Below, piece by piece: positions 7,485 through 11,643 of a stretch of 64,000 nucleotides of DNA (the first letter of the stretch is position 1; the number at the start of each line of letters is the position of its first letter). A program made the translations under genes and the position numbers. Source of the stretch: Oceanidesulfovibrio marinus (GTDB lineage: Bacteria; Desulfobacterota; Desulfovibrionia; Desulfovibrionales; Desulfovibrionaceae); assembly GCF_013085545.1 (NCBI RefSeq), contig NZ_CP039543.1:930001-994000 (forward strand). Direction: 5' to 3'. Below the pieces are notes generated by a model that was not told the origin of the DNA, made no database searches, and saw only the letters and a program-made list of their open reading frames with translations.

Positions 7485-8984
7485 ATGTGGCGGAATCCGA
7501 CATTCATCTGCGCCATGAGCCTGACCCTGGCGGTAGTGGCCTGGGGAATGGTGGACACTCTGGGGCTTGCGGCGTGGGCCAGCTCCACCGTGGATCTGCT
7601 GTTCCGCAGCCGGGGCTGGTTCGTGATGCTGACCACCACGTTCCTGCTGCTGGGAGCGATTATCCTGGCTGCCGGACGCGCGGGCCGCATCCGCCTTGGG
7701 GCCGAAGATGAACGCCCCGAGTTCTCCACCTTTTCCTGGCTGGTGATGATGTTCGCCGCCGGCATGGGGGTGGGGCTGCTGTTCTACGGCGTGGCGGAGC
7801 CGGTGGGCCATTTCCTGTTCTTCCGCAACTACCAGAACGCTCCAGAGGCCGCCTCGTCGGCCCTGTCCCTCACCGTGTTCCATTGGGGGCTGCACGCCTG
7901 GGCCATATACGGCTCCTGCGGCCTCGTCATAGCCTATTTCGGCTTCCGCAAAAACGCCCCCCAACTCCTCAGCTCCCCACTGCGCCACGTGTACGGCGAG
8001 AATGTATGGACGCGCGGTATCGGGTTCATTTTCGACGCCCTGGCGGTCTACGCCACGGCCATCGGCCTGGCAGGCTCCATGGCCATGGGTGTTTTTCAGG
8101 TGCAAAGCGGTGTGGCCCGGATGCTGGGACTGGGAGAGACCGGCCTGGGCTTGGCCCTTGGAGTCTTCGTTGTGCTTTGCCTGGCCTCGTTCCTGCCCCT
8201 GGTGCGCGATCTGGGATCGGGCATGGCCAAGCTTTCTTCTCTGGCCATACTCCTCACCGTAGGACTCATGCTCTACCTGCTGTTGGCCGGGCCCACGGGC
8301 TTTATCATGAGCAGCGTTACTGAAATGCTGGGAAATTACGCCAGCCAGGTGCTGCCACACGGCTTGCAGACCTACGTCTTCTGGGAAGAGAACGTGCTCA
8401 AGTACTTCTCGGACTGGACCCTGAACTACATGGTCTGGTGGCTGGCCTGGGCTCCCTTTGTGGGAGTCTTTATCGCGCGCATCTCGCGAGGCCGTACCAT
8501 CCGCGAGTTCCTTACCGGCGTGCTGCTCGCTCCCACAGGCTTTTCCCTGGTCTGGTTCGGCGTGTTGGGCAGCGCTGGCTTTTACGAGGCATATTTCGAG
8601 CGTTTCGATCCGCAAATCGTGGTGCGCGACGTCAACGCCGCCACCTTCGCCCTTCTGGAGAGCTTTCCCCTGGCCTGGCTCACCTCTGCGGCCACCATCG
8701 CCGCAGCTTTCCTCTTCATCGTCACCAGCGTGGTGAGCGCCGCCTATGTGCTGGCCATGTTCTCCAGCCGTGGCGACGCGGACCCGCCCACTTCCATGAA
8801 GCTGACCTGGGGCGTTATCCTGGCGGCCCTGGGCCTGGTGATGATCGTTACCGGCAGCGTGGACGCCGTGCGGGCCATTATCGCCCTGTCCGCCAATCCC
8901 TTCATCTTCATCGTACTGACGCTTTTTGTGTGCCTGCTGCGGGCGCTGCGGCGCGACATGAACCACCACGGGGAGGAATCATGA
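7485..8984 (+). CDS. BCCT-family (betaine/carnitine/choline) transporter
   Basis: A 499-residue secondary transporter with about twelve membrane helices. Family signatures are GMGVGLLFYGVAEP in the third helix region and the WWLAWAPFVGVFIARISRGR segment that follows the substrate-binding helix. Such proteins import trimethylammonium compounds driven by Na+ or H+ gradients, for osmoprotection or as carbon/methyl sources; the substrate here cannot be told from sequence. The N-terminus is short, and no long cytoplasmic C-terminal osmosensing tail like that of BetP is visible. GGAGGG precedes the ATG. The stop overlaps the start of a 28-codon membrane microprotein gene. Confidence 0.92.
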   Translation: MWRNPTFICAMSLTLAVVAWGMVDTLGLAAWASSTVDLLFRSRGWFVMLTTTFLLLGAIILAAGRAGRIRLGAEDERPEFSTFSWLVMMFAAGMGVGLLFYGVAEPVGHFLFFRNYQNAPEAASSALSLTVFHWGLHAWAIYGSCGLVIAYFGFRKNAPQLLSSPLRHVYGENVWTRGIGFIFDALAVYATAIGLAGSMAMGVFQVQSGVARMLGLGETGLGLALGVFVVLCLASFLPLVRDLGSGMAKLSSLAILLTVGLMLYLLLAGPTGFIMSSVTEMLGNYASQVLPHGLQTYVFWEENVLKYFSDWTLNYMVWWLAWAPFVGVFIARISRGRTIREFLTGVLLAPTGFSLVWFGVLGSAGFYEAYFERFDPQIVVRDVNAATFALLESFPLAWLTSAATIAAAFLFIVTSVVSAAYVLAMFSSRGDADPPTSMKLTWGVILAALGLVMIVTGSVDAVRAIIALSANPFIFIVLTLFVCLLRALRRDMNHHGEES

Positions 8985-9205: not shown

Positions 9206-9739
9206 TTACGCCACGAGACAGACCCGGTCCTCGCCGTCGCGCTCGTTCACGTAGACGTTCACATGCTCGCCGCGCTGGGTGGGCACGTGCTCGCCCACGT
9301 AGTTGGCCTCGATGGGCAGCTCGCGGTTGCCGCGGTCCACAAGGACCAGAAGCTCCACCTTGCGCGGCCGGCCGTAGTCCAGAATCGCCTCTAGCGCGGC
9401 GCGGATGGTCCGGCCGGTAAACAGCACGTCATCCACCAGCAGAATCTCGCGGTCCTCGATGGAGAACGGGATGTCGGTCTGGCTGATGGTCGGTTGCACG
9501 GCCAGACTGGTCCAGTCGTCGCGGTAGAGGTTGATGTCGAGGCGGCCCAGATTGAGGTCGCATCCGGCCTTGGCGTCCACAATGGCCTTGAGCCGCCGCG
9601 CGATGTCCACGCCCCGGCGCTGGATGCCCATGAGCACCAGATTCTCGCAGCCCTTATGCGCCGCGACGACCTCGTCGGCAAGCCTGGTCAGCACCGTCTC
9701 CATGTCGGCAGCGCTGAGAATATCCTTGCAGTCCTGCAT
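9206..9739 (-). CDS. pyrR: Bifunctional pyr operon regulator / uracil phosphoribosyltransferase PyrR
   Basis: The 177-residue protein carries the PRPP-binding signature ILLVDDVLFTGRTIRAAL, the family motifs LMGIQRRGVDIARRL and LYRDDWT, and a RPRKVELLVLVDRG segment. PyrR has weak uracil phosphoribosyltransferase activity and in Gram-positives binds pyr leader RNA as an attenuator. The gene stands alone here with its own terminator; no pyrimidine gene or attenuator is adjacent, so any RNA target must lie elsewhere. Its role may be mainly enzymatic in this lineage. Confidence 0.93.
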   Translation of the reverse strand: MQDCKDILSAADMETVLTRLADEVVAAHKGCENLVLMGIQRRGVDIARRLKAIVDAKAGCDLNLGRLDINLYRDDWTSLAVQPTISQTDIPFSIEDREILLVDDVLFTGRTIRAALEAILDYGRPRKVELLVLVDRGNRELPIEANYVGEHVPTQRGEHVNVYVNERDGEDRVCLVA

Positions 9740-9921
9740 GGCATACCCGTCCTTGATTCGCTCCGTATCCGTGAGAAATCGGCAAAATATTCATATAGTG
9801 GATTGCGCCGCTCAAGTAAATCCATTCTCCAGAAGGTTTTAATACATTGATATTGCAATAGATTCAACAAGGCACTCTGCCCGCATCCTTGTGGAAAGTC
9901 GTTCGTTTTTGGAGCCTGCCA

Positions 9922-9950
9922 TTGACAGCCTCTTTGTCGACCATTACGTT
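9922..9950 (+). promoter_or_regulatory. Sigma-70-like promoter of the Cys-type HesB gene
   Basis: TTGACA (9922-9927) and TACGTT (9945-9950) are 17 bases apart. The ATG lies 36 bases after the -10 element, behind CACGGAGG. Confidence 0.6.
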
Positions 9951-9985
9951 CTCCAATACTTCAAAATCACAGCACGGAGGTTTTC

Positions 9986-10327
9986 ATGGTCAATATTTCC
10001 GAGAACGCCATCAACGAGTTAAAAGCGTACTTTGAAGATAAGGATAAAAGCCCCATCCGCGTGTATCTCGCGCCCGGCGGTTGCTCCGGCCCCAGAATGG
10101 CCCTCGCCCTGGACCAAGCCAACGAGAACGACGAGGTTGTCGAGCACGACGGCTTCACTTTCGTGGTTGAGAAAGAGCTCTACGAGCAGGCCAAGCCCAT
10201 CAGCATCGACATCAGCTACATGGGCTTCACCGTGGACTCCGCCCTGCCCCTGGGCGGTGGTTCCTGTGGCTCCAGCTGCGGCTCCGGCGGTTGCGGCACC
10301 GACAGCTCCGGTGGTTGCTGCTGCTAA
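9986..10327 (+). CDS. HesB/IscA-like iron-sulfur protein, cysteine form
   Basis: A 113-residue protein of the HesB/IscA superfamily, whose members bind Fe or Fe-S clusters through conserved cysteines. Cys33 lies in the loop PGGCSGPRMALALD; the C-terminus is a glycine-cysteine tail (GGGSCGSSCGSGGCG, ending CCC) richer in Cys than classical IscA. FVVEKELYEQAKPISIDISYMG is the family core. It is a close paralog of the next gene, which has UGA at codon 33. The gene has its own promoter and terminator, so each copy appears independently expressed. Exact client proteins are unknown. Confidence 0.88.
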   Translation: MVNISENAINELKAYFEDKDKSPIRVYLAPGGCSGPRMALALDQANENDEVVEHDGFTFVVEKELYEQAKPISIDISYMGFTVDSALPLGGGSCGSSCGSGGCGTDSSGGCCC

Positions 10328-10351
10328 CTACCGGCAATCTGGCATAGACCC

Positions 10352-10386
10352 AAAGCCCTCGGCCTCTCCGGCCGGGGGCTTTTTCG
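10352..10386 (+). terminator. Terminator after the Cys-type HesB gene
   Basis: AAGCCCTCGGCC pairs with CCGGCCGGGGGCTT, with a mismatch in the stem, followed by TTTTTCG. Confidence 0.8.
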
Positions 10387-10538
10387 TTTCATGCATCGCG
10401 CATCATGCCGCAAGAAGCAGCGCCGCCCATTCTCCCCCGGTCTTCATCGTATGGCAGAGGGCAATAGCCAGTATAGATTAAACCAATAAATGAAATAGCT
10501 TCGACTTTTTGGAGTGAATAAAATAATTTCTTCCTGAT

Positions 10539-10565
10539 GTTCACGAACCTGCCGAATTCGTGTAC
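10539..10565. promoter_or_regulatory. Inverted repeat upstream of the UGA-containing HesB gene
   Basis: The 9-base arms GTTCACGAA and TTCGTGTAC match at 8 of 9 positions as an inverted repeat across a 9-base spacer. It lies about 60 bases before the -35 element, a place an activator could bind. No known regulator site is recognised. Confidence 0.3.
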
Positions 10566-10625
10566 AATATCTTTTTGGTGTGGAATTGCAGACCTGAAGA
10601 TCGTTACCAATTTTGGACAATTCAA

Positions 10626-10654
10626 TTGACATCCATCTATCCGGTCCTTAGGTC
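10626..10654 (+). promoter_or_regulatory. Candidate promoter of the UGA-containing HesB gene
   Basis: A consensus TTGACA (10626-10631) is followed after 17 bases by TAGGTC (10649-10654). The arrangement parallels the promoter of the upstream paralog. Confidence 0.5.
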
Positions 10655-10693
10655 TACCTCTCCGACCAGGTAAACATTTGCACGGAGGATTCA

Positions 10694-11011
10694 ATGGTCA
10701 ACGTTTCCGACAACGCCATGAAGGAGTTGGAGGCTTACTTCGCCGACAAGGAGAAGAGCCCCATCCGCGTATACCTCTCTCCCGGCGGCTGATCCGGCCC
10801 CCGGCTGGCATTGGCTCTGGATGAGCCAAACGATAACGACGAGGTCATCGAGTTAAACGGCTTCAAGTTCGTGGTCGAAAAAGACCTGCTCGAAAAAGCA
10901 AAACCCATCAGCATCGATCTCTCCTACATGGGCTTCACAGTGGACTCCGCCCTGCAGCTCGGCGGCGGTTCCTGCAGCACCAGCTGCGGCTCTGGCGGCT
11001 GCGGCGGCTAG
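10694..11011 (+). CDS. HesB-like selenoprotein (in-frame UGA = selenocysteine 33)
   Basis: Read through the TGA at 10790-10792, this is a 105-residue protein colinear with the upstream HesB-like gene: MVNVSDNAMKELEAYF, then YLSPGG-U-SGPRLALALDE, the core KPISIDLSYMGFTVDSAL and a Gly-Cys tail. The TGA falls exactly at the Cys33 codon of the paralog. After it the reading frame, residue identity and GC-rich third positions all continue to a normal TAG. A SECIS-like hairpin starts 18 bases after the TGA. HesB-like selenoproteins are a known family in selenocysteine-decoding bacteria. Without readthrough only a 32-residue fragment would form. The selenocysteine machinery (selA, selB, selC) is not in the window. 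Confidence 0.88.
10811..10829 (+). promoter_or_regulatory. Candidate bacterial SECIS element
   Basis: TTGGCT (10811-10816) pairs perfectly with AGCCAA (10824-10829) around the loop CTGGATG. The loop GG lies about 27 bases after the UGA, within the distance typical of bacterial SECIS elements, which require a small apical loop with G residues for SelB binding. The corresponding region of the Cys paralog (around 10103-10125) does not form this stem. Confidence 0.75.
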
Positions 11012-11036
11012 CCCTGGACATACGACTCATGTACGC

Positions 11037-11071
11037 AAATCCCCCGACCCTGCCTGGGCCGGGGGATTTTT
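11037..11071 (+). terminator. Terminator after the HesB selenoprotein gene
   Basis: AAATCCCCCG and CGGGGGATTT pair around a GC-rich loop and are followed by TTTT. Confidence 0.85.
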
Positions 11072-11136
11072 ACTTTGAATCGCCGATGCGCCGCCGGTTC
11101 CAGGTAGAACCTCCGGCGCCGCTCTCGCAACAGGGA

Positions 11137-11643
11137 TCATGCCCCGCGCTTTGCGGCGGCTAGGTCAAGCTGCAGATACGCCACGCCTTCGATGGGGTTG
11201 TCATAATAGGATGATATCTCCACAAACCCCAGGTTCATGTACAGCCTGGTGGCCGCGCCCATGACCTTCGGTATGGTGTCCAGCCGCATATACCGGTACC
11301 CGATGTCCCGCGCCGCCTCGATGGCGCACTCGGCCAGTCGCCTGCCCAGGCCGCAGCCCCGCGCCTCTGGCGCGATGTACAACCGCTTCATCTCGCAGCA
11401 GCCCAGATCGCAGGGCCGCACGCCCACGCAGCCGATGGCCTCGCCGGTCTCCTCGTCCCGCGCCAGAAACAGCCGCCCCTCCGGCGGCGCGTACTTGCCC
11501 GGCATCGAGGCCAGCTCGTCCTCGAAGTTCTGAAAGCACAGGTCGAACCCCAACCCGGCCGCATACGTGCGGAACAACCCGCGCACAACGTCCATGTCCG
11601 CATCGCTCTCAGCCTGGGTGATGTGTATCTCTCGCTTGTCCAT
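11137..11643 (-). CDS. GNAT-family N-acetyltransferase
   Basis: A 168-residue single-domain acetyltransferase. The acetyl-CoA pyrophosphate loop is seen in EARGCGLGRRLAECAIEAA after the beta strand CEMKRLYIAP, and the C-terminal part TRLYMNLGFVEISSYYDNP is characteristic of the fold. The acceptor substrate cannot be told from sequence. The ATG at 11643 gives the usual domain length; the frame stays open far upstream through repeat DNA that is unlikely to be coding. Confidence 0.85.
   Translation of the reverse strand: MDKREIHITQAESDADMDVVRGLFRTYAAGLGFDLCFQNFEDELASMPGKYAPPEGRLFLARDEETGEAIGCVGVRPCDLGCCEMKRLYIAPEARGCGLGRRLAECAIEAARDIGYRYMRLDTIPKVMGAATRLYMNLGFVEISSYYDNPIEGVAYLQLDLAAAKRGA

Follow-up and report, generated by a model that had tools for sequence, protein, structure and literature searches.

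The HesB-like gene at positions 10694-11011 of the window (the whole 64,000-nucleotide stretch of Oceanidesulfovibrio marinus DNA analysed here) very probably encodes a selenoprotein, an in-frame UGA being read as selenocysteine (Sec), as judged from its family and from the decoding machinery of the genome. The family is a known one and the fresh detail is the adjoining twin, which is coded with cysteine (Cys) at the same position.

The probable selenocysteine gene and its relatives

The features on which the reading of the gene depends are the following.

10694..11011, plus strand: putative HesB-like selenoprotein gene, 105 residues, Sec33; frame read with TGA as U; matches NF038090 and PF01521
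10790..10792, plus strand: UGA codon 33, read as Sec in the motif G-G-U-S-G-P; the same codon in 49 of 49 UGA members with the loop motif
9986..10327, plus strand: Cys twin, HesB-like, 113 residues, TGC at codon 33, hairpin of the Sec type absent at this place; NF038090 126.4 bits

The initial annotation had described an in-frame TGA at 10790-10792 in an otherwise intact gene, falling on the codon of Cys33 in the neighbouring paralog and followed by 72 codons of homology without a change of frame. This description is borne out at each point. The frame 10694-11011 contains a single TGA, at codon 33, then 72 sense codons and a TAG stop, and the paralog has TGC at its own codon 33 within the same GG-C-SGP context. 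The two proteins share 68 identical residues among residues 1-90. The shortening expected from a plain ORF search is also seen, as the table-11 ORF list has only 10811-11011, with a TTG start, in that frame. The Sec gene scores 129.4 bits against the NCBI model NF038090 (IscA_HesB_Se; cut-off 85), with residues 1-96 on positions 1-101 of the 101 of the profile, and this model is over its cut-off in none of 14 control genomes. The Pfam model of the A-type carrier superfamily, PF01521, is matched at 30.5 bits (cut-off 26.3).

Relatives were compared over 56 loci, namely 26 loci, a further 29 of the order (best matches) and the window, in which 116 family members were found. These comprise 49 Sec-type and 50 Cys-type members and 17 dropped for a missing motif, the latter being 13 third copies in loci of the UCx arrangement and one copy in each of L076, L020 (GCCGGP), L033 and L034. 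Identical 48-nt rows were counted once, giving 43 distinct Sec and 46 distinct Cys sequences. The two genome sets overlap (L010/L058 and L019/L068 look alike), so the loci are not all independent. A further 19 phylum loci are the best-scoring ones and not a random draw; there, the motif was missing from three Cys-type paralogs, which have GGCSGA, and the Cys-type copies of L090 and L101, which have the motif and lack the hairpin core described below, are excluded from the 46. With Sec and Cys forms taken together, NF038090 finds matches in 239 of 247 genomes of the order (224 over cut-off) and in 100 of 198 genomes of the phylum-wide draw (79 over cut-off).

UGA stands at codon 33 in 49 members from the 56 loci, window included, and every UGA member with the loop motif has it at that codon. 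Between the Sec genes of the window and of a genus-mate, dN is 0.013 and dS 0.67 before the UGA, with 0.043 and 0.36 after it. It is vanishingly improbable that the TGA is a sequencing error or a recent nonsense mutation that left a Cys-type gene as a pseudogene, a loss that might be tolerated with a Cys twin next door, since the UGA is kept in the genus-mate, in other genera and in all those 49 members, which in practice excludes an error, and since constraint extends past the UGA with the hairpin conserved alongside. It is also very improbable that the UGA ends translation and that the TTG at 10811 starts a separate protein of 66 residues. Such an ORF does exist under table 11, but codons 1-32 are constrained with the rest (dN 0.013 versus dS 0.67) and the predicted IscA-type fold spans the UGA. 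Moreover, among the 43 distinct Sec sequences the candidate start is CTG 24 times and TTG 19 times, varying as a Leu codon would.

Selenium-decoding machinery

The host genome is a single contig of 4.76 Mb, 99% complete with 2% contamination. The search for selA, selB, selC and selD proposed in the initial annotation, which took a lack of selB and tRNA-Sec to speak against a selenoprotein, found all four. The tRNA-Sec gene scores 81.8 bits (gathering 47) and is also called as tRNA-SeC by ARAGORN, a second match to the same model lying at 47.1 bits, barely above gathering. SelB (370.8 bits, cut-off 242), SelA (610 bits, cut-off 268) and SelD (331 bits, cut-off 125) are present as well, and SelD itself holds one TGA, in the context G-U-A-S-K as seen by eye. 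Among the 14 control genomes, the models for tRNA-Sec, SelB, SelA and SelD are over cut-off in 5, 2, 1 and 2, respectively. A gene that a plain ORF search shortens is now tied to a complete selenium-decoding gene set.

Three FdhA matches are over cut-off in this genome, two of which hold one TGA in the context ARI-U-HSAT. The third formate dehydrogenase (C1:1932202-1935207, L081) has, by eye, a Cys codon at the Sec site of the other two. The formate dehydrogenases are another set of Sec and Cys isoforms in the host genome.

The SECIS-like hairpin

Downstream of the UGA codon lies a hairpin of the following kind.

10811..10829, plus strand: bacterial SECIS-like hairpin UUGGCUC-UGGAU-GAGCCAA, core at 10813-10827 (folding, conservation, pairing)

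The stem scan used the apical-loop G rule and the range of UGA-to-hairpin distances of bacterial SECIS elements, and the Sec gene has a hairpin just past the UGA with a G early in its apical loop. The 6-bp stem with loop CTGGATG that had been reported 18 nt past the UGA is exact; counting the closing C-G as well makes it a stem of 7 pairs around the loop UGGAU. Folding of the UGA region, which had been suggested as a check, gives structures that beat most dinucleotide shuffles (z -2.0 and -2.4, with 6 and 2 of 200 shuffles as good), and synonymous-codon resampling of the Sec gene matches or exceeds the stem length in 1% of 500 trials.

The core GGCTCTGGA[TC]GAG[CT]C (GGCUCUGGAYGAGYC) stands after the UGA in every one of the 43 distinct Sec sequences, and 1 of the 46 distinct Cys sequences has it after the Cys codon. 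Stems of at least 5 pairs with a G early in the loop occur in 43/43 Sec versus 6/46 Cys sequences, and synonymous resampling gives p <=0.05 for 36/43 and 1/46, respectively, in tests that are not independent as the sequences are related. Codon +8 is GCT in all 43 Sec sequences, whereas the other Ala codons of these genes are GCT in 61 of 494 cases. Of the 19 further Sec genes, which are the top scorers of the phylum draw, 16 retain the core exactly; L101 and L103 carry GGTTC/GAACC, where both partners have changed so that the pair persists and Ala becomes Val, and L099 deviates within the loop. Thus, the hairpin tracks the Sec members and, with one exception, not the Cys members.

The five core pairs are formed in 310 of 310 cells for 62 Sec sequences versus 117 of 230 for the 46 Cys sequences. 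Compensatory change is limited to one pair, C-G to U-A, in two sequences; one such pair is reached by 45 of 500 shuffles and two such cells by none of 500. Sliding the partners by -1 or +1 raises the number of cells changed on both sides (22), and the covariation score is 0.126 at slide -1, above the 0.114 of the structure itself, a signal that may come from pairing alternatives below the core. Covariation is weak as stand-alone proof of the hairpin because the core is nearly invariant, and it was rejected as independent proof, its signal being slight. An Rfam search of 9740-11140 returned five matches, all below gathering and no SECIS among them, which were taken as chance.

A looser pattern, GGCTCTGGNNGAGYC, which was widened to NN on sight of the fdhA copies, has three occurrences in the host genome, one in the Sec gene and one in each of the two UGA-containing fdhA, every time right after the Sec codon. 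Its reversed control occurs twice, so the count is unremarkable and the case rests on the positions of the three matches. We infer that one SelB reads all three hairpins. Overall, the selenoprotein reading of the initial annotation finds strong computational support in the machinery, the conservation of the UGA, selection past it and the Sec-linked hairpin.

Promoters, leaders and terminators

Both genes of the pair are flanked by candidate signals of their own.

10626..10654, plus strand: probable Sec-gene promoter TTGACA-N17-TAGGTC (by eye; outside the consensus-scan matches)
10643..10670, plus strand: 28-nt block spanning the -10 and the Sec leader, with the same sequence at the Sec gene of the genus-mate
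9922..9950, plus strand: probable Cys-twin promoter TTGACA-N17-TACGTT (by eye; outside the consensus-scan matches)
10352..10382, plus strand: terminator-like hairpin after the Cys twin
11048..11064, plus strand: terminator-like hairpin after the Sec gene
L011:4339-4409, L012:4345-4415, L014:4345-4415, L066:1399-1470, L069:1399-1470, L078:1401-1471: inverted repeats around the Cys-twin promoter

A promoter consensus scan gave two matches where shuffled sequence gave 0.9 on average, and the TTGACA-N17 promoters recognized by eye are not among them. The arrangement of the Sec promoter is repeated in the genus-mate, and similar ones stand, again by eye, before many other Sec genes. The 28-nt block was not seen upstream of the Cys twin, and the DNA preceding it has diverged from the genus-mate while the block itself is identical. 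The terminator-like hairpin that follows the Cys twin suggests that each of the two genes has a transcript of its own. Of 7 relatives examined, 6 have inverted repeats of 14-20 nt on the two sides of the Cys promoter (AATCACCG..CGGTGATT, spaced by 31-44 nt), resembling an operator through which the Cys copy could be controlled separately. No such repeat was found in L015, the seventh region, and the upstream regions of both genes in the window have no inverted repeat of 10 nt or more.

The cysteine twin and the pyrR site

The site at which the pair stands is marked by a divergent neighbour.

9206..9739, minus strand: pyrR, divergent neighbour marking the conserved site; NF003549 221 bits, cut-off 138

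As in the window, 46 of 55 relative loci have a divergent pyrR upstream, and a Sec gene and a Cys twin stand together beside it, in either order, in 44 of the 56. The 47 pyrR-linked loci include 32 in which Sec precedes Cys (18 UC, 13 UCx and 1 UxC) and 12, with the window, in which Cys precedes Sec; the remaining ones have Sec alone (2) or one unclassified copy (1). The other window neighbours were each matched in at most 8 of the 55 relative loci (flanks up to 4 kb, 1.5 kb in part of the set), so no operon partner hints at function. Elsewhere in the window, 7485-8984 encodes a transporter of the BCCT type, related to those for glycine betaine uptake but scoring under the equivalog cut-off. 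In 13 of the 56 loci (L011:4906-5211 and 12 similar), the Sec/Cys pair is followed by a third HesB-like copy; these copies have neither Cys nor Sec at position 33 and the tail cysteines are kept in the six seen in full.

The Cys twins seem to have arisen several times from the Sec version. The four sequences of the genus of the window form one clade (97/98.6), and a single grouping of all Cys rows is rejected (p-AU 4e-47). Sec and Cys must interchange 12 times on the tree, and supported branches force 6 or more of these changes; many forks are unsure, since the tree rests on 100 columns only. The Cys twin of the genus-mate (L050:2322-2369) has TGT for TGA together with a complete SECIS core and is the sole Cys member in which the core is intact. 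A stem as long arises in 0.2% of its synonymous resamplings, or about 9% allowing for 46 members, and dS to its Sec neighbour is near 1. This core, a fossil or converted hairpin, agrees with a duplicated Sec gene in which Sec later gave way to Cys (or with gene conversion). Remnant SECIS elements in Cys homologs are in print, including that of a Desulfitobacterium HesB-like gene (PMC1794560, in section 9 and a figure legend).

Tandem duplication of the Sec gene and a change of the UGA to a Cys codon is the probable origin of the Cys twin. A less probable, though serious, alternative is that the Cys twins descend from one ancient gene paired with the Sec gene and that gene conversion has kept the two alike in each lineage. 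Short tandem genes can undergo gene conversion, the pair sits at one pyrR-linked site in most loci, and the full core of the genus-mate twin, at that dS, could be a converted patch. However, both orders occur beside pyrR, and the rejected Cys clade and the forced changes argue against a single ancient twin, although conversion would distort the tree too.

The Cys twin may be a selenium-independent counterpart, a role on which we are cautious. A wider scheme is put forward with similar reserve: Desulfovibrionaceae would re-create Cys twins at the pyrR site, on either side of the Sec gene, through duplication in tandem and a change of UGA to a Cys codon, each twin serving as a selenium-independent isoform; the genus-mate twin would keep the SECIS core as a fossil and the window twin would have lost it, while in one group the twin promoter would have its own inverted-repeat operator and be switched separately.

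Predicted protein and decoding

At codon 33, the ribosome would meet the UGA with SelB bound to the hairpin that starts 18 nt downstream. SelB would then deliver Sec-tRNA(Sec), made by SelA with selenophosphate from SelD, and translation would run on to the UAG, steps proposed on the basis of the family and the machinery. The product would have an IscA-type fold with Sec at the position of IscA Cys35, and three cysteines (94, 98 and 103) in a flexible tail.

In a profile of 40 members, position 33 aligns with Cys35 of E. coli IscA (position counted by eye), which we take to be a ligand. With Sec written as C, all of these 40 have C33, G35, P36 and C98, and C94 and C103 are almost invariant. 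The AlphaFold2 model has a pLDDT of 83, with residues 92-105 under 50; its best matches are IscA and SufA structures, with TM 0.70/0.75 to IscA 1s98 and E 3.8e-7 to 1x0g. It is rather likely that Sec33 and the tail cysteines serve to bind an Fe-S cluster, iron or a related metal, the product acting as a specialised A-type carrier-like protein of an anaerobe. Its part in Fe-S metabolism is suggested by the predicted fold and the residues only.

Comparison with known systems

The Sec protein resembles IscA, ErpA and SufA in its predicted fold and in the place of its loop Cys/Sec. It differs from them in having Sec for Cys35, in the tail and in missing the equivalog cut-offs (IscA 30.6 of 150.6, ErpA 26.8 of 117 and SufA 25.1 of 136.2 bits). 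A C-terminal C-G-C motif is typical of canonical A-type carriers. It is found in the tails of 19 of the 46 Cys members and of none of the 43 Sec members, of which 13 have any CxC and all have at least three cysteines. As C-G-C is in no Sec tail and the equivalogs are far below cut-off, the protein is IscA-like and not a canonical IscA.

The Sec/Cys pair in one genome is a natural experiment with two similar proteins that differ at a putative metal ligand, and comparing them could show the benefit of selenium to an Fe-S carrier-like protein. A HesB-like selenoprotein is also known from Methanococcus maripaludis, an archaeal protein with another SECIS system. According to a passage of PMC11097638 (2024), mutagenesis and 75Se labelling led to its identification, and its function is still not clear; it is of the same named kind as the Sec gene product, likened by name and not by sequence. 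A tandem Sec/Cys HesB pair is not mentioned in the listed titles, abstract openings or passages of the literature searched.

Within the HesB-like selenoprotein family, the Sec gene is below the cut-off of TIGR01911 (HesB_rel_seleno; 47.7 bits versus 66.35), the model cited for this family in published passages. It shares with the family the NF038090 match over cut-off, the hairpin past the UGA and the UxGP motif, given for HesB-like selenoproteins in a passage of PMC13188914 and present as U-S-G-P at 33-36. The initial annotation had held the class to be already known, which agrees with the NF038090 match and with the Desulfovibrio proteins in print. Indeed, HesB-like selenoproteins of D. vulgaris and D. 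desulfuricans are listed in Table 3 of PMC1794560, and D. vulgaris DVU_1382 is given as a TGA-containing gene of the HesB family in a passage of PMC1914089. Since such Desulfovibrio selenoproteins have been in print since 2006, the Sec gene belongs to an already known kind.
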